From positions 62,001-126,000 of the forward strand of contig NZ_PZKE01000008.1 in NCBI RefSeq assembly GCF_003034965.1: 64,000 bases of DNA, written 5' to 3'. This stretch comes from Fuscovulum blasticum DSM 2131. Its GTDB lineage: Bacteria > Pseudomonadota > Alphaproteobacteria > Rhodobacterales > Rhodobacteraceae. Made by a program: the position numbers and the translations under genes. The notes under the pieces are model-generated. The model saw only the letters and a list, made by a program, of their open reading frames with translations, searched no databases and was not told the DNA's origin. This document shows, one piece after another, positions 27,980 to 37,638 of this stretch; within the stretch, counting starts at the first letter, position 1; the number at the start of each line of letters is the position of its first letter.

Positions 27980-29017
27980 ATGCGCGAAATCACGATTTCC
28001 GGTCGCAAGATCGGCCCCGCTCATCCGCCGCTTGTGATTGCCGAGATCGGCATCAACCACGGCGGCGATCTTGCCGTCGCCAAGGAAATGGTGCGCCTTG
28101 CCGCGGCTGCGGGCTGCGAGCTGGTCAAGCACCAGACCCATATTCTGGAAGACGAGATGACGGATGAGGCCAAGGCGATCTTCCCGCCGAATGCCGATGT
28201 CTCGATCTGGCATGTGATGGAACGCTGCGCCCTCTCGCTGGACGATGAGGCCGAGCTGAAGCGTTACACCGAAAGCCTCGGGATGATCTGGATCTCGACG
28301 CCGTTTTCCCGCGCGGCGGCCGATTACCTCGAAACCCTCGACGTGCCCGCCTACAAGATCGGTTCGGGCGAGGCCGACAATCTGCCGCTGATCCGCCACA
28401 TCGCCCGCAAGGGCAAGCCGGTGATCCTGTCCACCGGGATGCAGACGATCGAGACGATCCGCGCCAGCGTTGACATCCTGGATGCCGCCGGTGTGCCCTA
28501 TGCCCTGCTGGAATGTACCAACCTCTATCCCAGCCCGCCCGAGATCGTCTCGCTGAAAGGCGTGACCGAACTGCGCGAGGCCTTCCCCAACGCCGTTGTG
28601 GGCTTTTCCGACCATTCCATCGGCCCGGAAATGGCGCTGGCCTCGGTGGCGCTGGGCGCCAGCATCCTGGAACGCCATTACACCGACACCCGCTATCGCA
28701 AGGGGCCGGACATCATCAATTCGATGGACCCGGCCGAACTGCGCTTCCTGATCGACCGCTCGCGCGAGATCTGGATCGCCGCCAACAACCCCAAACAGCG
28801 CAGCGCGCCGGAAGAAGACGTCTACCGCTTCGCCCGCGGCTCGGTCGTGGCCGATGCCGACCTGCCCGCCGGCCATGTGATCCGCGAACAGGACATCTGG
28901 GCCCGCCGCCCCGGCAGCGGCGAAATCGCCGCCTATGACTTCGACAAGGTGCTGGGCAAACGCCTGACCCGCGCCGTCACCCGCAACACGCAACTGAAAT
29001 GGAGCGATCTGGGGTGA
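27980..29017 (+). CDS. neuB: Nonulosonic (sialic-like) acid synthase NeuB
   Basis: A 345-residue protein with its ATG after CAAGGACGCAAGC. The NeuB domain holds PLVIAEIGINHGGDLAVAKE, LVKHQTHILEDEM, ISTPFSRAAADYLE, YKIGSGEADN, LSTGMQTI, VGFSDHSIGPEMALA and ILERHYT. The C-terminal SAF-type (antifreeze-like) domain runs from about 285 to 345. It condenses phosphoenolpyruvate with an N-acylated mannosamine-type sugar, giving a nine-carbon acid. Whether the product is Neu5Ac, legionaminate or another sugar cannot be told from sequence. Confidence 0.93.
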   Translation: MREITISGRKIGPAHPPLVIAEIGINHGGDLAVAKEMVRLAAAAGCELVKHQTHILEDEMTDEAKAIFPPNADVSIWHVMERCALSLDDEAELKRYTESLGMIWISTPFSRAAADYLETLDVPAYKIGSGEADNLPLIRHIARKGKPVILSTGMQTIETIRASVDILDAAGVPYALLECTNLYPSPPEIVSLKGVTELREAFPNAVVGFSDHSIGPEMALASVALGASILERHYTDTRYRKGPDIINSMDPAELRFLIDRSREIWIAANNPKQRSAPEEDVYRFARGSVVADADLPAGHVIREQDIWARRPGSGEIAAYDFDKVLGKRLTRAVTRNTQLKWSDLG

Positions 29018-29778
29018 GCCGTCCCCCGGTCCCCATCTTCGTCATCTCGCTGACCCGCGCCACCGAACGGCGGGCGCGGATTGCGGCCGAATTTGCCCAG
29101 GCGGGGCTGGACTACACGCTCTTCGACGGCATCGACGGCCGGGCCGAGGAGGCGCGGCTTCTGGCGCAGACCGATCTGCCCGGCTGGCACCGCTTCATGG
29201 GCGGGCCGATTTCGGCCGGGCATATGGGCTGCTACGCCTCGCATGTGGCGCTCTGGGCGCAGATCGGCGCCGGGCCCGATCCGGTGGTGCTGATCTGCGA
29301 GGATGACGTGACCTTCGACCCCGATTTCCCGCAGGCCCTGCAGGCCGCGCTGGACATGGCCGATGGCTGGGACATCTGCCGCTTCGCGCGGCTGCGCGCC
29401 AAGGGCGCGTTGACGCAGCGCCGGCAGGGCAAGTGGCGGCTCAATGCCTATTGGGGGCGCTTCACCGGCAATGCCTGCTATCTGATCAAGCGCGATCTGG
29501 CCGCCCGGCTGGCGCGCGACTTCTGGCCGATCCGCCGCGCCCATGACCACGAACTGAACCGCTTCTTCGCCCATGACTTCCGGCTGATGGGGCTGGAACC
29601 CTTCACCGCCCGGCCGGAAGACCGCGGCGAAAGCTACATCACCGGCACCGCCATGGCCGAGGCGACCAAGTTCCCCGCCCTCCGCCGTCTGCCGCATTAC
29701 GCGCACAAGGCCGCCAACTACCTGCGCCGCATCACCTGGCTGATCCGCCACCGCATGTTGCCGCCGCCCCGCAGCTAG
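29014..29778 (+). CDS. Glycosyltransferase family 25 protein
   Basis: A 254-residue protein; a GTG start overlapping the neuB stop (GTGA) with GGAG nine bases upstream is preferred over the in-frame ATG at 28999. Family-25 markers: PIFVISLTRATERRARIAAE, GHMGCYASHVALW and ICEDDVTFDPDF (acidic metal site). A basic hydrophobic C-terminus (LRRITWLIRHRML) may contact membrane. Such enzymes add galactose or related sugars to lipopolysaccharide. Translational coupling to neuB suggests action on the same glycan. Confidence 0.87.
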   Translation: MSRPPVPIFVISLTRATERRARIAAEFAQAGLDYTLFDGIDGRAEEARLLAQTDLPGWHRFMGGPISAGHMGCYASHVALWAQIGAGPDPVVLICEDDVTFDPDFPQALQAALDMADGWDICRFARLRAKGALTQRRQGKWRLNAYWGRFTGNACYLIKRDLAARLARDFWPIRRAHDHELNRFFAHDFRLMGLEPFTARPEDRGESYITGTAMAEATKFPALRRLPHYAHKAANYLRRITWLIRHRMLPPPRS

Positions 29779-30608
29779 GCCCGCGTCCCCGCGCCGCCCC
29801 AGATGCCATAGGTCTCGCGGAAATACCGGATGCAGGCGCGGTTGGCCGAAATCCGGTCATGCCCCTGATAGACGAAATTGCGCAGCGCGGCCTCCTTCAC
29901 CTCGTTCGAACTGCCCTTCGACCGCACCTTGTCGCGGACATTCAGCCAGATCGGAATCCCGCGCCGCTCAAGACAGCCCGACAGCCAGACATCATCCACC
30001 GTCCACAGCACATCGGGAATGTCATAGGCCGCATCGTCGAAATCGTCGGGCCGCACCATCACGCCGCCCCAGCCTTCCAGAATGTCGACATAGCCCGAGG
30101 TCATGGCCTTGGACGGTTTCCACCGCCCCAGCGACAGCGCCCGCCGCAGCCGGTAGCCCAGATCCTTGCGGCGATAGCCGGCCTTGGGCTGGCGCGGCGA
30201 CTGCCAGCCGTCATGGGCATAGAAGGGCGTGTCCAGCAGACCGCCTTCCTCGCAGATCACGCAACCGGGCTGGTCGGCCCCCGCCTCGACAAAGCGTTGC
30301 GCCCAGCCCGGATCATATACCTTGTCGTCATCGCAGAACAAAATCCGCACATCCTGCCCCCGATAGTCGCGGCAGGCCGGCAGCACCTTGGTCGCCGGAC
30401 CCAGATCCTCGTCGATCAGGCGCAGGGTCACGCCCTCGGGCAGCTTCGGCAACTGCGCCGGGTCATAGTCGAACCGGCGATAGCGCCGCGGGATGTAAAG
30501 GTTGATCGCCTCGATCCGGGCGGTCTGCTGCTTCAGCGCGGCCAGGTTTTCGTGCACATAGGCAAACCGCGGCGGCACCGTGGTCAGCGACAGGATCAGT
30601 CGGGTCAT
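29775..30608 (-). CDS. GT-A-type glycosyltransferase
   Basis: A 277-residue protein with VRILFCDDDKVYDPGWAQRF, a DDDK (DxD-like) metal site, and VDDVWLSGCLERRGIPIWLN, which fits the second acidic catalytic motif. It starts MTRLILSLTTVPPR, resembling family-2-like enzymes. The opposite-strand end overlaps the GT25 stop by four bases (convergent). The donor and acceptor are unknown. Confidence 0.75.
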   Translation of the reverse strand: MTRLILSLTTVPPRFAYVHENLAALKQQTARIEAINLYIPRRYRRFDYDPAQLPKLPEGVTLRLIDEDLGPATKVLPACRDYRGQDVRILFCDDDKVYDPGWAQRFVEAGADQPGCVICEEGGLLDTPFYAHDGWQSPRQPKAGYRRKDLGYRLRRALSLGRWKPSKAMTSGYVDILEGWGGVMVRPDDFDDAAYDIPDVLWTVDDVWLSGCLERRGIPIWLNVRDKVRSKGSSNEVKEAALRNFVYQGHDRISANRACIRYFRETYGIWGGAGTRA

Positions 30609-30626
30609 CGCGCGCGGCTCCCGTTC

Positions 30627-31385
30627 TCAGACCCTGCCGCCGTGGCGGGTCCAGTAGTCCACCATCCAGGGCACCGGACCCCGGCCGTAATGCGGGAACA
30701 CGTCCCAGTTGCCCGCCGGAGGGCGGATCAGGTCAATCGGGCGCGGGCGACCGTGGAAGCACAGCACCCGCACCTCCGGCCCGGGCGGATTCGGCCCCCG
30801 CAGCCGGTCAATCAGCAGGGGCGGGCGCAGGTGATACTTGTAGCTGACAATCCACGCCTGCGGCCAATAGCCGATGGGGCTGACCTCGCCATGCACATAG
30901 GCCTGCTCAATGTCATACTTTTCTGTAATTGCGTCTCTTTCAGCGCGCAGCCGGTCCACCAGATAGCCAAGTGAGCCCAAGTCGAACGCGAAGATGCCCG
31001 TGCCAGTGCTTGGCGGGCCGTCTTTGCCGCGCCATGGAGTGGAATCCAGAGCCATCAGGCCGCTGCCAAGCGTAAAGAACTCACCCAGTTGGCCGCAGAT
31101 CACGGTGTCCAGGTCGATGAACAGCGCCCGGCCCGTCAGCCCGTAAAGATCATGCCCGAACAGCGCGATCTTCGGCCAGGCGCCGTGGCGCCAGTTCTCG
31201 GGCTTCAGCCCGATGTCGGGAATGGGAAAGGTCTCGATCTCGGAGCGCAAGCCGCTGCTGTCATCGGTCAGGCAGACAAACCGGAAATCGCCCGTCAGAT
31301 TGGCCCGCACCGCCGAATACAGCACATTGACGTATTCCGCGCCGTAAAGCGTGCCCCATTTCATGCAAAGAACGACGCGGTCCAT
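30627..31385 (-). CDS. GT8-like glycosyltransferase
   Basis: A 252-residue protein; the ATG giving MDRVVLCMKWGTLYG replaces an upstream in-frame ATG that lacks support. Features: YGAEYVNVLYSAVRANLTGD (nucleotide-binding start), ALFIDLDTVICGQLGEFF (DxD), and VLCFHGRPRP near the end (HxG metal ligand, as in family 8). It probably transfers a hexose to a surface glycan. It lies just upstream of the preceding GT-A gene on the same strand (18-base gap), so the pair look like an operon. Confidence 0.78.
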   Translation of the reverse strand: MDRVVLCMKWGTLYGAEYVNVLYSAVRANLTGDFRFVCLTDDSSGLRSEIETFPIPDIGLKPENWRHGAWPKIALFGHDLYGLTGRALFIDLDTVICGQLGEFFTLGSGLMALDSTPWRGKDGPPSTGTGIFAFDLGSLGYLVDRLRAERDAITEKYDIEQAYVHGEVSPIGYWPQAWIVSYKYHLRPPLLIDRLRGPNPPGPEVRVLCFHGRPRPIDLIRPPAGNWDVFPHYGRGPVPWMVDYWTRHGGRV

Positions 31386-31546
31386 GAAGGTCTCCGGTTG
31401 TGGGCGCAGCCCTTCACTTAGGGCCGGCCCCCCGCCTTGTCCACCGCCCCGCCGCCCGCTTGCCCGCCGCACCATCCCTGCACCGATTGCCAGCGCGGGC
31501 CGTCGCCGCTATGCAGGGCAATGCTGCAAGTGCCAGTGCGAGAGCC

Positions 31547-32665
31547 ATGAAAGACATCCTCTTCCTTACCGGCACGCGGGCCGATTTCGGCAAGCTTGAA
31601 CCGCTGGCCGCCGCCGCGCGCGATGCCGGCTATGGCGTGACCTTCTTCGTCACCGGCATGCACATGATGGACCGCTACGGCCTGACCCGGAACGAGGTGC
31701 GCCGCATGGCGGGGGTCGGCACCCATGAATTCCTGAACCAGCGCCCCGGCGACCCGCAGGATATGGTGCTGGCCAAGACCGTCACCGGGTTTTCCGATTA
31801 CGTCGCCGAACACCGCCCCGACCTGATCGTGATCCACGGCGACCGGGTGGAAGCCCTGGCCGGCGCGCTGGTCGGCGCGATGAACTATGTCCGCTCCGCC
31901 CATGTCGAGGGGGGCGAGGTGTCGGGCACCATCGACGAGGTGTTCCGCCACTGCAACACCAAGCTCTGCACGCATCATTTCGTGTCCTCCGAAGCCGCCG
32001 CGCGCCGGGTCATGGCGCTGGGCGAACCCGCCGAAACCGTGCATGTCATCGGCTCGCCGGAACTGGACTTCCACGCCCGCCCCTCGGGCGTGACGCTGGA
32101 TCAGGTGCGCGCGCATTACGAAATTCCCTTCGCCGACTATGGCATCGCCACCTTCCACCCCGTCACCAGCGAACAGGCCACCATCGGCACGCAGGCCGCC
32201 GCGCTCTTCGGTGCGCTGGAAGCCTCGGGCCGCGCCTTCGTGGTGATCGCGCCGAACAACGACCCCGGCTCGGACGCCATCTTCGCCGTGCTGGACCGGC
32301 TGCCGAAAGACCGCTTCCGCGTGCTGCCCTCGATGCGCTTCGCGCATTTCTCGGAACTGATGAAGAACGCCGCCTGCATGGTGGGCAATTCCAGCGCCGG
32401 TGTGCGCGAGGCGCCCTTCCTGGGCCTGCCGTCGCTGGACATCGGCACCCGGCAGGCGAACCGCTCGGATGCGGCCTCGGTCACGGCCTGTCAGGCGGCG
32501 GATACCGCCACCATCGCCCGCTTTCTGGCGCAGGATTGGGGCCGCCGCCACGCCCGCGACGCGGGCTTTGGCCAGGGCCTTGCCGCTGACCGTTTCGTGC
32601 AGGTGCTGGCCCGCCCCGAGTTCTGGGACAGCCCGCTGCAAAAGGCCTTCCAGGACCGGGAGTAA
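31547..32665 (+). CDS. neuC: UDP-GlcNAc 2-epimerase (hydrolysing), NeuC type
   Basis: A 372-residue protein with an ATG giving MKDILFLTGTRADFGKLEPL. Fold markers: IHGDRVEALAGALVGA, AHVEGGEVSGTIDEVFRH and the late VGNSSAGVREAPFLGLPSLD and IGTRQANR that bind UDP. NeuC-type enzymes epimerise and hydrolyse UDP-N-acetylhexosamine to the free mannosamine that NeuB uses. It stands upstream of two Kdo-transferase-like genes (6-base gap to the first), suggesting one operon. There is no LegB/LegC pair here. Confidence 0.92.
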   Translation: MKDILFLTGTRADFGKLEPLAAAARDAGYGVTFFVTGMHMMDRYGLTRNEVRRMAGVGTHEFLNQRPGDPQDMVLAKTVTGFSDYVAEHRPDLIVIHGDRVEALAGALVGAMNYVRSAHVEGGEVSGTIDEVFRHCNTKLCTHHFVSSEAAARRVMALGEPAETVHVIGSPELDFHARPSGVTLDQVRAHYEIPFADYGIATFHPVTSEQATIGTQAAALFGALEASGRAFVVIAPNNDPGSDAIFAVLDRLPKDRFRVLPSMRFAHFSELMKNAACMVGNSSAGVREAPFLGLPSLDIGTRQANRSDAASVTACQAADTATIARFLAQDWGRRHARDAGFGQGLAADRFVQVLARPEFWDSPLQKAFQDRE

Positions 32666-32670
32666 GCCTG

Positions 32671-33894
32671 ATGCACTGGCAGTTGGCGGCCTATCTGGCG
32701 GCGACCCGGGCGATCCCGCTGCTGGCCCCGGCCGTGCTGCGCCGCCGCCTTGCGCGCGGCAAGGAAGACCCCGCCCGCTGGACCGAGAAGCTGGGCCGCC
32801 CCTCGGCCCCGCGCCCCGCGGGCCGTCTGGTCTGGCTGCATGCCGTGGGTCTGGGCGAGGTGCTGGCGCTGCGCGGCCTGATCGCCGCGCTGGCGGGGCA
32901 GGCGCCGGATTTCAGCTTCCTTGTCACCTCGGGCACCCGCGCCTCGGCCGAGGTGCTGGCCGCCAACCTGCCGCCGCGCACCACGCATCAGTTCCTGCCG
33001 CTGGATGCGCCCGGCTATCTGGCCCGCTTTCTGGCGCATTGGCGGCCCGACCTGTCGATCTGGGCGGAACAGGAGCTGTGGCCCGGCGCCGTGGTTGCCG
33101 CCCACCGCGCCGGCGTGCCCTTGGCGCTGGTGAACGCCCGGATGAACGCCGACAGCTTCGCCCGCCGGTCGCGGGGGCGGGGGCTTTACGCCGACCTTCT
33201 GGCCCGCTTCCGCCTGATCGCCGCGCAGGACGACGCCACCGCCCGCCACCTGCGGGCGCTGGGCGCGGGCGAGGTGCGGGTGACCGGCTCGCTCAAGGCC
33301 GCCGCCCCGCCGCTGGCGGCAGACCCGGCCCGGCTGGCATCGCTGGAAACCGCCCTGGCGGGCCGTGCCCTCTGGCTCCTCGCCTCCTCGCACCCGGAAG
33401 ATGAGGCCGCCGCGCTGGCCACCGCGCCCGACGACCGGCTTCTGGTCATCGTCCCGCGCTACCCCGACCGTGGGGCAGGGATCGAGGCCGCCGTCCGCGC
33501 CACCGGCCGCAGCGTGACCCGCGCCGGGGCAGGGCAGGCGCCCGGCCCTGCGCAGGTGCATATCGCCGATGCCTTCGGCGAACTGGGCCTCTGGTATCGG
33601 CTGGCCCCCTTGGCGCTGGTCGGCGGCAGTTTCGGCCCGGTGCAGGGCCACAACCCCTGGGAAGCCGCCGCGCTGGATTGCGCCATCCTGCACGGCCCCG
33701 CCACCGCCAATTTCGCCGCCGATTATGCGCAGCTTGACGGGGCAGGGGCCGCCCGCGCCGTCACCGCCGCCACGCTGCCCGCCGCCCTCTCTGCCGATCC
33801 GGCCCCCTTCGCCGCCCGCGCCCGCGCCCTGTCGGATGCCGCCCGCACCAGCCTAGCGCCGCTGGCGCGTGATCTTGCGGGGCTGCTGAGATGA
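32671..33894 (+). CDS. Kdo transferase (GT30) paralogue A
   Basis: A 407-residue protein of the WaaA/GT30 family. Matches: ARGKEDPARWTEKLG; LVWLHAVGLGEVLALR with the catalytic Glu of HAxxxGE; LSIWAEQELWPGAVV; and ALVGGSFGPVQGHNPWEAAA with the donor-binding HNP-E. WaaA moves Kdo from CMP-Kdo to lipid A. Of the two paralogues this one has the more usual N-terminal segment and could be either the housekeeping WaaA or a nonulosonate transferase. It overlaps the next gene by ATGA. Confidence 0.9.
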   Translation: MHWQLAAYLAATRAIPLLAPAVLRRRLARGKEDPARWTEKLGRPSAPRPAGRLVWLHAVGLGEVLALRGLIAALAGQAPDFSFLVTSGTRASAEVLAANLPPRTTHQFLPLDAPGYLARFLAHWRPDLSIWAEQELWPGAVVAAHRAGVPLALVNARMNADSFARRSRGRGLYADLLARFRLIAAQDDATARHLRALGAGEVRVTGSLKAAAPPLAADPARLASLETALAGRALWLLASSHPEDEAAALATAPDDRLLVIVPRYPDRGAGIEAAVRATGRSVTRAGAGQAPGPAQVHIADAFGELGLWYRLAPLALVGGSFGPVQGHNPWEAAALDCAILHGPATANFAADYAQLDGAGAARAVTAATLPAALSADPAPFAARARALSDAARTSLAPLARDLAGLLR

Positions 33895-35171
33895 TGCGGC
33901 TGTTCCTCGCCCTCTGGTCCGCGCTCTGGACGCTGTGCCTGCCGCTGATCCTGCTTTATCTGCGCCGCAGGGGCCGCAAGGACGCGGCCTATTCCCAGAA
34001 CGTCGCCGAACGCTTCGGCCGTTACCCGCAGCGCCTGCCCGGCGCGGTCTGGGTCCATGCCGTCAGCCTGGGCGAGATGCGCAGCGCGGTGCCGCTGATC
34101 CGCGCCCTGCTGGACCGGGGCGAAACCGTGGTCTGCACCCATTTCACCCCCGCCGGCCGCCGCGAATCCACCCGCGTCTTCGGCCCCGACATCGCCGCAG
34201 GCCGCCTTGCCGCCGTCTGGGTGCCCTTCGAGCTGGCCTGGTGCTTCCGTGGCTTCTTCCGCGCCTTCCGCCCGAAACTGGGCCTGGTGATGGAGGTCGA
34301 GATCTGGCCGCGCATGGTCTTTGCCGCCCGCGATGCCGGGGTGCCCCTTTTCATGTGCAACGCGGGCTACCCGTCGAAATCGGTCGCCCGCGACGCCCGC
34401 TTTCCGCTGCGCCCCGCCGTCATGCGCGGCTTCGCCGGGGCGCTGGTGAAATCGCAGCTTCAGGCCGGCCGCTTCGCCACCGTCGGCGTGCCGAACATCA
34501 CCGTCACCGGAGAATTGCGCTTCGACCAGCCGATCCCGCCCGCGCAGGTGGCCGCCGGTCAGGCCGCCCGGCCCCTGCTGGCCGGCCCCCGCCGCACCCT
34601 GACCTTCGCCTCGGTGGTCGAGGGCGAGGATGCGCTTTACCTTGATGCCATTCAGGCCGCCCTCGCGGCCCCGGACGCGCCCTTCGTGATCTACGTCCCG
34701 CGCAAGCCCGAACGGTTTGACGAGGTGGCCGCCCTGATCGCCGCCCGTGGCCTGCGCCTGATGCGCCGCAGCACCGCGCTGGATGCCGCCCTGACCCTGA
34801 CCGCCCCGCAGCAGGCCGACATCCTGCTGGGCGACAGTCTGGGCGAGATGTATTTCTATCTGGCCATGGCCGACCGCGTGGTCACCGGCGGCGGCTTCAC
34901 CCCGCATGGCGCGCATAACATCATCGAGCCGCTGGCGCTGGCGCGGCCCGTCATCGTGGGCCCTGAAATCCACACCATCGAATATCCGGCAGCCGAGGCG
35001 ATTGCCGCCGGCGTCTGCTTCCACGCGCAGACCCCGGCCGATCTGGCCCGCGCGCTGACGCCCCAAGGCTGGCCCGGCCCCTCACAGGCTGGCATCGCCG
35101 CCTTTCTGGCCGCCCATTCCGGCGCCACCGCCCGCACGATGCAGGCGCTGGCGCCTTACCACAGCCGCTAG
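33891..35171 (+). CDS. Kdo transferase (GT30) paralogue B
   Basis: A 426-residue GT30 protein with an N-terminal membrane anchor (residues ~3-25). It keeps WVHAVSLGEMRSAVPLI (catalytic Glu), LVMEVEIWPRMV (versus the common ETELWP) and GGGFTPHGAHNIIEPLALAR with PVIVGPE, so the CMP-sugar site looks functional. Divergence from paralogue A along the whole length shows the two are not a recent duplication. Translational coupling to A and co-location with neuC suggest they act in the same glycan. Confidence 0.9.
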   Translation: MMRLFLALWSALWTLCLPLILLYLRRRGRKDAAYSQNVAERFGRYPQRLPGAVWVHAVSLGEMRSAVPLIRALLDRGETVVCTHFTPAGRRESTRVFGPDIAAGRLAAVWVPFELAWCFRGFFRAFRPKLGLVMEVEIWPRMVFAARDAGVPLFMCNAGYPSKSVARDARFPLRPAVMRGFAGALVKSQLQAGRFATVGVPNITVTGELRFDQPIPPAQVAAGQAARPLLAGPRRTLTFASVVEGEDALYLDAIQAALAAPDAPFVIYVPRKPERFDEVAALIAARGLRLMRRSTALDAALTLTAPQQADILLGDSLGEMYFYLAMADRVVTGGGFTPHGAHNIIEPLALARPVIVGPEIHTIEYPAAEAIAAGVCFHAQTPADLARALTPQGWPGPSQAGIAAFLAAHSGATARTMQALAPYHSR

Positions 35172-35173
35172 CC

Positions 35174-35197
35174 GCAGGTTCCCTCGAAGGAACCTGC
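35174..35197. terminator. Hairpin between convergent GT30-B and SDR genes
   Basis: A perfect 9-bp stem (GCAGGTTCC / GGAACCTGC) with loop CTCGAA fills the 26-base gap between the two stop codons. There is no T-run. A bidirectional terminator is likely from position. Confidence 0.55.
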
Positions 35198-35989
35198 TCA
35201 CCAGCCGCTGAACCCGCCGTCCACATTCACCAGTTGCCCGGTCATGTAGCCCGCCGCCGCCGAGGCCAGGAACAGCATCGCATCGGCAATCTCGTCGGGC
35301 TTGGCCATGCGGTTCAGCATGATCAGCTCGCCCACGCGGCGCTGGAATTCCTCGGAATGGTTGTTGAACACCGCCCCCGGCGCGATGGTGTTCACCGTCG
35401 CCCCGCGCGGCGCCCAATAGCCCGCCAGCCAGACCGTCAGCCCGTGGATGCCCGCCTTCGTCACCCCATAGGCCGAAAAGTTCTTGAACGGCATCCCCTC
35501 ATAGATCCGGTGATGCGCCCCGTTCAGCGCATACATGCTGGCCACGTTGATCAGCGTGCAGGGCCATTTCCCCACGATGTCGCGGTCCATCTGCCGGGCC
35601 ACCATGAAGGGGCCGGTCAGGTTGGTGCGCATCGTCTTTTCCCAGTCGCTGACCTTCAGGTCGGCGAAATCGGGAAAGCCCTTGCCCGCGCCCATCAGCA
35701 GCTCGCCCGTGATGGCCGCGTTGTTCAGCACGACATTCGGTTCCCACCCGTCCTTCAGGATGCGGGCGAAGATTTCCGTCACCTCGTCTTCGTTTGCCAC
35801 ATCAAGTGGATAGAAGCGAAAGTTCGCGTTCCCGCCATGCGCCTCGACCAGCGCCTCGGCCCGCGTGCCGGGCAGGTCGGACGCGATCACCCGCGCGCCT
35901 TCGGCCAGCATCCGGCGCACATAGGTGCTGCCCAGCACGCCCCCCGACCCGGTGATGAAGATGGTGCGGCCTTGCAACTGGTCAGTCAT
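35198..35989 (-). CDS. Short-chain dehydrogenase/reductase
   Basis: A 263-residue classical SDR: NAD(P) motif TIFITGSGGVLG (TGxxxxLG form), NNAAI, active-site YGVTKAG (Tyr and Lys) and a following PGAV. It overlaps the cytidylyltransferase start region (8 bases), and so is translationally linked. The arrangement SDR-CMP transferase-Gfo/Idh resembles the Campylobacter ptmA-ptmB region that modifies or completes legionaminate-type sugars. The exact step is not known. Confidence 0.9.
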   Translation of the reverse strand: MTDQLQGRTIFITGSGGVLGSTYVRRMLAEGARVIASDLPGTRAEALVEAHGGNANFRFYPLDVANEDEVTEIFARILKDGWEPNVVLNNAAITGELLMGAGKGFPDFADLKVSDWEKTMRTNLTGPFMVARQMDRDIVGKWPCTLINVASMYALNGAHHRIYEGMPFKNFSAYGVTKAGIHGLTVWLAGYWAPRGATVNTIAPGAVFNNHSEEFQRRVGELIMLNRMAKPDEIADAMLFLASAAAGYMTGQLVNVDGGFSGW

Positions 35990-36689
35990 GGCTGTGCTCT
36001 TTCAGGGCTTCGGTCAAAAGGAACTCGACAAGTCGAAAGTCGAAGGGGCTGTCGATGTCGACACAGCGTTCCGGCGGCATCAGGAAGGGGATCACGCGCC
36101 CCTCCCACAGCCCCTTGGACCGTTTCAGATAGGCCGACGACACCACATAGGTGCTGGCCGCATGTTCATAGACCACCGGCGCCTGCTGGCGCGCGACCAC
36201 GCCACCCGGCAGCGGCTTCGACACATGCAGCGCCCCGCTGGCATCCGGCTCCACAAGGTTGAAATAGGGGTTCTTTCGCGCCTCGCAGCAGCTCATCACC
36301 AGGTCAGGGTGTTCGATATTGTAAAGTTCCAGCGCCCCGGAAATATCCTCCGGCAGCCGCAGCGGCGAAGTGCAATCCAGATCAAGGAAGGCATCGACCG
36401 GGCCTGTCAGCGCCTCGGACGCCTCCAGCGCGTGCTGCCACACGCCCCATTTCCCTGCCGTGTCGGTTGCCAGATGCGCCGGCCGCAGCCCGATCTTCAG
36501 CGCGCCCTTCGCCACCGCATGATCATAGATTTCCTCGTCATCGGTGCTGACCACCACCGCATCCACCGCCGGATGCGCGAACAACTGGTCCAGCGACCAG
36601 TCGATCAGCGGCTTGCCGCAGATCGGGCGGAAATTCTTGCGCGGCACGCCCTTGCTGCCCTTGCGCGCGCCGATATGGCCCAGGATCAT
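35982..36689 (-). CDS. CMP-nonulosonate (acylneuraminate) cytidylyltransferase
   Basis: A 235-residue protein; the ATG after GAGGAGA gives MILGHIGARKGSKGVPRKN, the NeuA/PtmB/LegF/KdsB-type opening that holds the CTP site. LDCTSPLRLPEDI and the closing CVDIDSPFDF are the conserved core and metal site. It would activate the NeuB product with CMP for transfer. It lies on the opposite strand from neuB/neuC but in the same locus, with SDR and Gfo/Idh genes as neighbours. Confidence 0.9.
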   Translation of the reverse strand: MILGHIGARKGSKGVPRKNFRPICGKPLIDWSLDQLFAHPAVDAVVVSTDDEEIYDHAVAKGALKIGLRPAHLATDTAGKWGVWQHALEASEALTGPVDAFLDLDCTSPLRLPEDISGALELYNIEHPDLVMSCCEARKNPYFNLVEPDASGALHVSKPLPGGVVARQQAPVVYEHAASTYVVSSAYLKRSKGLWEGRVIPFLMPPERCVDIDSPFDFRLVEFLLTEALKEHSHD

Positions 36690-36702: not shown

Positions 36703-37638
36703 TCATGGAATCTCTTTCCCGCACCGCCCGATGAAGGCCCGCGCCGCCCAGGCCGCGGCCACCAGCCGGGCCGACGGCAGGCACAGGTCCAGCCGCGGCA
36801 GATGCTCCACACCCGACGGGTCCGCGCCCTGTGCCAGCGCCAGAAAATCGCGCATGGCGGACAGGAACATCTCGTTGCGCTCCAGCGGGCGGTCCAGATC
36901 GCGCGGCCCCGCCGCATCGGTCACCCGGTAGGTCGCGGCGGCAAAGTCGAAATCATGCATCCGCTCGGTCCCGCGCAGCAGGGTGCGGCGGTGCAGCTTC
37001 GGCGTCAGGTAGTCCATCGCCACCTCGCCCGCGATGCCGTCCCCGGCCAGCGAAATCCGGCTGGCCACATCCACCCCCGGATAGGCGGCATGGCCCAGAC
37101 TTTCGACCGACTTCACCGCCAGCCCCGGAAACAGGCAGGCCGCCATGTCCAGCTCGTGACACAGGTCCAGCAGTACGCCGCCGCCCTCGGCCCGCGCGGC
37201 ATAGCTTTCGGAAAACCGCCAGTTCGCCCGCCATTGCGTCACGTCATGGCCGATGGTCAGCGAAAACTGGAACACATCCGACAGGTCGGCCTGCGCCAGC
37301 GTGCGGAAGGCCGGGTGATAGCGCATCATGTAGCCCAGCACCGACCGCCGCGCGACGCCCGCCGTCACTTCGGCAATCGCCTCCACCTCGGCGGGGGCAA
37401 AGGCCAGCGGCTTTTCGATGTAAAGCGGCAGGTCGCGCGCTGCGGCCTCGGCAATCAGCGGCAGGCGGATGTTGGTCGCGGTGGCAATCACCACGGCGTC
37501 GGCCGCGTCCATCGCCGTCCGCGCCCCGTCAAACCCCGCCGCCCGCCAGGACAGCGCCACCGGCGCGGCCCCCAGGGCCGCCAGATTGTCGGTATGCCGG
37601 CGTCCGATCGACCCCGACCCGATGACCAGAACGCGCAT
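36703..37638 (-). CDS. Gfo/Idh/MocA-family oxidoreductase
   Basis: A 311-residue protein with an N-terminal Rossmann fold (RVLVIGSGSIGRRHTDNLA), the EKPLAF lysine motif and a C-terminal sugar-binding region including the metal/substrate His of LCHELDMAACLFPG. It probably oxidises or reduces a sugar nucleotide. Gene order with the CMP transferase and SDR suggests a role in the same nonulosonate pathway (PtmF-like position). It lies 13 bases upstream of the cytidylyltransferase gene on the same strand. Confidence 0.9.
   Translation of the reverse strand: MRVLVIGSGSIGRRHTDNLAALGAAPVALSWRAAGFDGARTAMDAADAVVIATATNIRLPLIAEAAARDLPLYIEKPLAFAPAEVEAIAEVTAGVARRSVLGYMMRYHPAFRTLAQADLSDVFQFSLTIGHDVTQWRANWRFSESYAARAEGGGVLLDLCHELDMAACLFPGLAVKSVESLGHAAYPGVDVASRISLAGDGIAGEVAMDYLTPKLHRRTLLRGTERMHDFDFAAATYRVTDAAGPRDLDRPLERNEMFLSAMRDFLALAQGADPSGVEHLPRLDLCLPSARLVAAAWAARAFIGRCGKEIP

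Follow-up and report, generated by a model that had tools for sequence, protein, structure and literature searches.

The Kdo of the lipopolysaccharide (LPS) inner core is normally all added by WaaA, and WaaA enzymes are able to use several acceptors one after another (PMC12856342). In Acinetobacter baumannii, WaaA is not alone in assembling the inner-core ulosonates, a division of labour like the one proposed here for a pair of GT30 proteins; the second Kdo transferase there, KdoT, is Elm1-like rather than a GT30 protein and was shown to work with CMP-Kdo (PMC12856342). The lipooligosaccharide core of Loktanella rosea, now Yoonia rosea, is built exclusively from ulosonic acids, Neu-(2-8)[Kdo-(2-4)]Kdo, with Neu (2-8)-linked to Kdo (PMC3210612; also PMC5811610), and is a chemical structure without assigned enzymes. 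Sialic acid is present in Rhodobacter capsulatus LPS (PMC9631793), the structure coming from strain 37b4 and the genome examined here from DSM 1710. The LPS sialyltransferases of families GT42 and GT52 would combine a CMP-nonulosonate with an LPS acceptor, as proposed here, but GT30 is a different family. To our knowledge, GT30 enzymes are known only for Kdo transfer, no member being known to attach a sialic-acid-like sugar and none to use two donors; a search of the open literature, with most subscription journals outside its scope, found no report of a GT30 protein tied to a nonulosonate.

The neu cluster of Fuscovulum blasticum and its two GT30 genes

The window, that is, the whole 64,000-nucleotide stretch analysed, belongs to contig C8; the genome measures 3.59 Mb. 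Pfam and TIGR profile matches confirmed the neuB, neuC and CMP-sugar synthetase genes where the sequence-only reading had placed them, within the following cluster:

27980..29017, + strand: neuB, nonulosonate synthase of Neu/Leg type (PF03102, 228 bits; TIGR03569 NeuB, 339 bits with a cut-off of 400, versus 229 bits for PseI)
28999..29778, + strand: GT25-family glycosyltransferase gene overlapping neuB (PF01755, 94 bits); its presence varies among related loci
29775..30608, - strand: unclassified protein with a weak GT2-like match (PF00535, E 0.011 only); not conserved
30627..31475, - strand: unclassified protein, common in these loci and frequently adjoining neuC (no Pfam match; homologues in related loci)
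31547..32665, + strand: neuC, hydrolysing UDP-GlcNAc 2-epimerase (TIGR03568, 342 bits, cut-off 236)
32671..33894, + strand: GT30-A, WaaA-descended, proposed CMP-Kdo transferase (PF04413, 178 bits; clade inside the family WaaA; residues)
33891..35171, + strand: GT30-B, a GT30 of another branch, proposed nonulosonate transferase (PF04413, 145 bits; tree, residues, linkage)
35198..35989, - strand: SDR oxidoreductase, regular member of neu clusters (PF13561, 140 bits; conserved in related loci)
35982..36689, - strand: cytidylyltransferase, presumed CMP-nonulosonate synthetase (PF02348, 60 bits; TIGR03584 PseF, 90 bits, below cut-off)
36703..37638, - strand: Gfo/Idh-type oxidoreductase, regular member of neu clusters (PF01408, 27 bits; conserved in related loci)

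The gap between the neuC stop and the GT30-A start measures 5 nt, not the six bases first given, and GT30-A and GT30-B overlap by 4 nt (ATGA). Both GT30 genes are intact, and their products belong to GT30 by PF04413 (178 and 145 bits, cut-off 23.9). The catalytic-Glu motif (HAVGLGE in GT30-A, HAVSLGE in GT30-B) and the HN-E donor-binding segment (GHNPWE and AHNIIE, respectively) are present in both, again in line with the sequence-only reading. Predicted models are confident (pLDDT 92.7 for GT30-A and 92.0 for GT30-B) and have a WaaA-like GT-B fold, Aquifex WaaA (2xci) being the top solved structure in Foldseek for both, and both genes are under purifying selection (dN/dS of about 0.31 for A and 0.26 for B, against the relative G011). 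The two proteins thus share Pfam family, fold, catalytic Glu and HN-E segment with the WaaA/KdtA enzymes of Aquifex aeolicus (2XCI/2XCU), Acinetobacter (4BFC) and E. coli; unlike these, they occur as two intact, divergent copies per genome that are tied to nonulosonate genes. The NCBIfam WaaA equivalog places both below its cut-off (A 263 bits, B 356 bits), as it does ordinary alpha WaaA proteins, so these cut-offs do not discriminate WaaA identity.

The cytidylyltransferase of the cluster is a weak relative of PseF and KdsB and is distinct from the KdsB on contig C1. Searches run without a positive control found neither GT42 nor GT52 sialyltransferases in 19 genomes, this one included, which agrees for these two families with the earlier remark that no sialyltransferase is visible. 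A literature search yielded no paper on the SDR/PtmB/Gfo gene trio. At the chromosomal site of the window's neu cluster, the close relative G008 (L045) carries one ordinary GT30 gene and no neu genes, which suggests that an exchangeable LPS island occupies this place.

Kdo supply and the lpxK-linked GT30 gene

The genome encodes three GT30 genes, the third directly preceding lpxK on contig C1:

C1:18781-19971 (L007:8781-9971): lpxK-linked GT30 without the catalytic Glu

The sequence-only reading had counted on an lpxK-linked housekeeping WaaA as intact control. The gene is there, but HAGGS..TAG stands in place of HAASVGE and the catalytic Glu is lost, and we rejected it in that role. Most of the class representatives retrieved, and five family members, have waaA directly before lpxK, intact in those five, whereas the catalytic-Glu motif is also lost wherever another family genome has such a third, lpxK-linked copy (L075-L097). 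In Amylibacter (L262) and Aliiroseovarius (L263), the lpxK-linked copies retain the Glu and have lost the HN-E segment or its His. The lpxK-linked gene is still an open frame (dN/dS 0.22 to 0.44); kept family-wide under purifying selection without its catalytic Glu, it may be a pseudoenzyme that has its own role.

GT30-A and GT30-B are the only intact GT30s of this genome. Since the lpxK-linked copy is degenerate and both KdsA and KdsB are encoded, at least one of the two should transfer Kdo, leaving the other as the only full candidate for recruitment to the nonulosonate. The kdsA and kdsB genes are present in 27 of 29 genomes tested (MAG G260 lacks KdsA and MAG G266 both), which leaves unsupported the notion of a nonulosonate replacing Kdo altogether.

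Distribution, ancestry and residue changes

Across a family sample of 36 relatives plus this genome, GT30-B occurs in 17 of 37 genomes, and NeuB of the same type occurs in those 17 and in G030, so that no genome of the sample has B without NeuB. GT30-A was detected in 16 of the 17; in the remaining one, G035, B sits at a contig end. Another NeuB type (30-37% identity) is found without B in three genomes (G010, G014 and G026), and family genomes without NeuB carry one intact GT30 each, except for the incomplete G021, which has none. The association between B and NeuB has a Fisher p of 4e-9 with kinship ignored; on well-supported branches of the LpxK tree about four of four independent pairs are concordant, a number too small to be significant by itself. 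Five genomes (G001, G004, G005, G009 and G013) have a complete neu cluster at one site and A and B at another, and both persist. G030 (L103) has same-type neuB and neuC beside a GT4-type glycosyltransferase gene, without A or B, and keeps an intact lpxK-linked WaaA.

A GTDB scan with GT30-B, of which the best 80 of 556 loci were kept (nearly all from Rhodobacterales) and 79 examined, revealed neuC with both A and B in 55 loci, neuC with B alone in 3, A and B without a nearby neuC in 12 and B alone in 9. The GT30-neuC link, whose conservation elsewhere the sequence-only reading had left to be checked, is therefore widespread. GT30-A directly follows neuC in most loci, and neuC, A and B are conserved at related loci whereas other transferase genes are not. 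The neuC-A-B order is seen in four loci of Yoonia (L141, L145, L150 and L182), relatives of L. rosea rather than L. rosea itself, and the R. capsulatus DSM 1710 genome contains A, B and NeuB. Lipid A acyltransferase genes adjoin GT30 genes in L134 and L043, marking these as LPS islands.

Several loci amount to natural experiments. In three of them (L165, L171 and L185), GT30-B stands without A directly behind a complete pseudaminic-acid operon, pseBCFGHI, with profile scores above cut-offs for PseB, C, F, G and I in L165 and for PseH in L185. In Shimia (L134 and L188) and Amylibacter (L149), B directly follows neuC with no A at the locus, although Shimia has A elsewhere. B is the only glycosyltransferase gene seen in the pse operons and in Amylibacter. 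In G079 (L221), which belongs to a different class of Pseudomonadota, neuC, neuB, a cytidylyltransferase gene, B and A lie together, and the genome has no further GT30; the whole module was probably transferred horizontally. In G016 and L184, A follows neuC and B lies elsewhere, accompanied by genes for a LegC-like aminotransferase, a GMC oxidoreductase and a cytidylyltransferase, the family assignments being those of the G016 copy. G274 carries, in addition to A and B, another B-type gene, which adjoins a second cytidylyltransferase cluster of this kind.

Among 22 genomes chosen for B or a near relative, 19 encode a NeuB-family synthase, among them G268 from Burkholderiales, whose WaaA is ordinary; no such synthase is encoded by the incomplete MAG G267 and two Aliiroseovarius. 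In Aliiroseovarius, which has no NeuB in the genome, B stands with genes for a HAD protein and a cytidylyltransferase, and in L179 (10010-12950) the order is B, HAD protein, cytidylyltransferase, with transposase and resolvase genes nearby. No GT30 other than B has both motifs intact in Amylibacter or in either Aliiroseovarius genome, and kdsA and kdsB are present in them; as the sole intact GT30 where CMP-Kdo is made, B may transfer Kdo there, as well or instead.

In the GT30 tree, A forms one clade (100/98) nested in the family's resident WaaA. B and B-like proteins form another (100/99), grouped with beta-type WaaA, a label that rests on the Burkholderiales record L190, and the nearest outside relatives of B are single-copy WaaA proteins. 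The phylogeny thus supports descent of A from the resident WaaA and a separate origin for B. We compared 86 A and 89 B proteins with 28 proteobacterial WaaA rows in E. coli numbering; the numbering comes from one of these rows, E. coli WaaA. In A, Ser57, next to the catalytic Glu, is Gly in all 86 proteins, Glu244 is replaced by Asp and Arg38 by Lys. B has lost Arg154, Gln183 and His241, has Arg for Lys208 and differs at several other positions, whereas A keeps Arg154, Gln183, Lys208 and His241. These four are also kept by alpha, beta and gamma WaaA, except that the beta group has Arg at 241; the nearest WaaA relatives of B accordingly retain Arg154, Gln183 and Lys208, with Arg at 241. Neither A nor B keeps the full set of residues invariant in alpha, beta and gamma WaaA. 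Relative to WaaA/KdtA, then, A lacks Ser57 and Glu244, and B lacks Arg154, Gln183, Lys208 and His241, although Aquifex WaaA is also without an equivalent of Arg154. The changes fit altered substrate handling, without proving it.

Proposed donors of GT30-A and GT30-B

With the GT30-neuC link widely conserved and B correlating with NeuB, a functional tie of these GT30 genes to CMP-nonulosonates is well supported by comparative genomics; genetic association with CMP-nonulosonate synthesis, as expected of a nonulosonate transferase, is what we find. The proposal that GT30 proteins were recruited to a nine-carbon sugar is partly supported to that extent, and can hardly cover both proteins in full because at least one must transfer Kdo. 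We infer that the neu locus makes a CMP-activated Neu-type nonulosonate that GT30 enzymes would attach to the LPS inner core. GT30-A, from the resident WaaA lineage, would most likely put Kdo on lipid A, and GT30-B, from the other branch, would most likely transfer the nonulosonate to Kdo, so that the expected product resembles the L. rosea core, Neu-(2-8)[Kdo-(2-4)]Kdo-lipid A. On the sequence data, use of some donor besides CMP-Kdo by one or both of the proteins is quite probable; linkage and residues favour B over A as the one with the changed donor, and the odds that B is the nonulosonate transferase seem slightly better than even. More broadly, we give a probability of about 0.5 to B founding a subfamily within GT30 that takes a CMP-nonulosonate (of Neu-type sugar or pseudaminic acid) as donor in place of CMP-Kdo and, with a WaaA-descended partner, builds inner cores of ulosonic acids only in many Rhodobacterales. 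For this reading we count the joint occurrence of B and NeuB in 17 of 37 genomes, the retention of A and B where they are unlinked from the neu cluster, B behind pse operons and behind neuC without A, the absence of any other visible glycosyltransferase gene from the pse operons and Amylibacter, the second B-type gene of G274, the WaaA residues lost from B, the nesting of A in resident WaaA, the L. rosea core and the sialic acid of R. capsulatus. Its main difficulty is the genomes in which B is the sole intact GT30 and CMP-Kdo is nevertheless made (Amylibacter and two Aliiroseovarius, the latter without any NeuB); A following neuC in G016 and L184, the loss of Ser57 and Glu244 from A and the missing Arg154 equivalent of Aquifex also count against it.

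Those B-only genomes are what a reversal of roles would predict, with B, from another lineage, as the working Kdo transferase and A, thus freed, recruited for the nonulosonate. The position of A directly after neuC in most loci, G016 and L184 included, the Ser57-to-Gly change in 86 of 86 A proteins and the single-copy WaaA relatives of B point the same way. Against it, B accompanies pse operons and neuC where A is absent, does not occur without NeuB in the family sample, and has lost more of the residues shared by Kdo transferases than A has; we regard the reversal as unlikely. Slightly more doubtful still is that neither protein transfers anything but Kdo, one acting on lipid A and the other on Kdo, while an unrelated transferase adds the nonulosonate and no more than a common LPS core island unites the genes. 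A shared island need not imply a shared substrate, KdsA and KdsB are present, acyltransferase genes mark L134 and L043 as LPS islands, a GT25 gene and two unclassified genes lie in the window, and Acinetobacter offers a second Kdo transferase beside WaaA, albeit of another family (PMC12856342). Yet it is neuC, A and B that are conserved and not the other transferase genes, the co-occurrence survives unlinking, the pse operons with B have no other transferase gene, and no GT42 or GT52 match emerged (in searches without a positive control). A B protein that is bifunctional in donor, adding both Kdo and the nonulosonate while A, where present, adds the other Kdo, would accommodate the B-only genomes that have neu or pse genes together with CMP-Kdo genes, and WaaA enzymes do act on several acceptors in turn (PMC12856342). 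The retention of both A and B in nearly all neu genomes suggests separate duties, however, and several B-only genomes are incomplete MAGs. We are also aware of no two-donor GT30, and consider this arrangement highly improbable.

If B does use CMP-nonulosonates, as we favour, an essential family of LPS enzymes would gain a donor, and candidate enzymes would be at hand for the L. rosea core and perhaps for the sialic acid of R. capsulatus, together with residue-level leads on Kdo versus sialic-acid specificity. The natural set of A with B, B with pse genes, B alone and WaaA alone makes the donor question directly testable.

B-type GT30 genes also occur beside genes for a LegC-like aminotransferase and a cytidylyltransferase in L054 (8282-12949), L184 (6490-11284) and L267 (2086-6686), with a GMC oxidoreductase in addition in G016; we speculate that such clusters perhaps serve an amino-ulosonate such as an 8-amino-Kdo analogue. 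In G258 (L260:7180-8532), a third B-like GT30, which sits on a long branch, is encoded next to a DNA methylase gene and has Tyr where the motif His would be.
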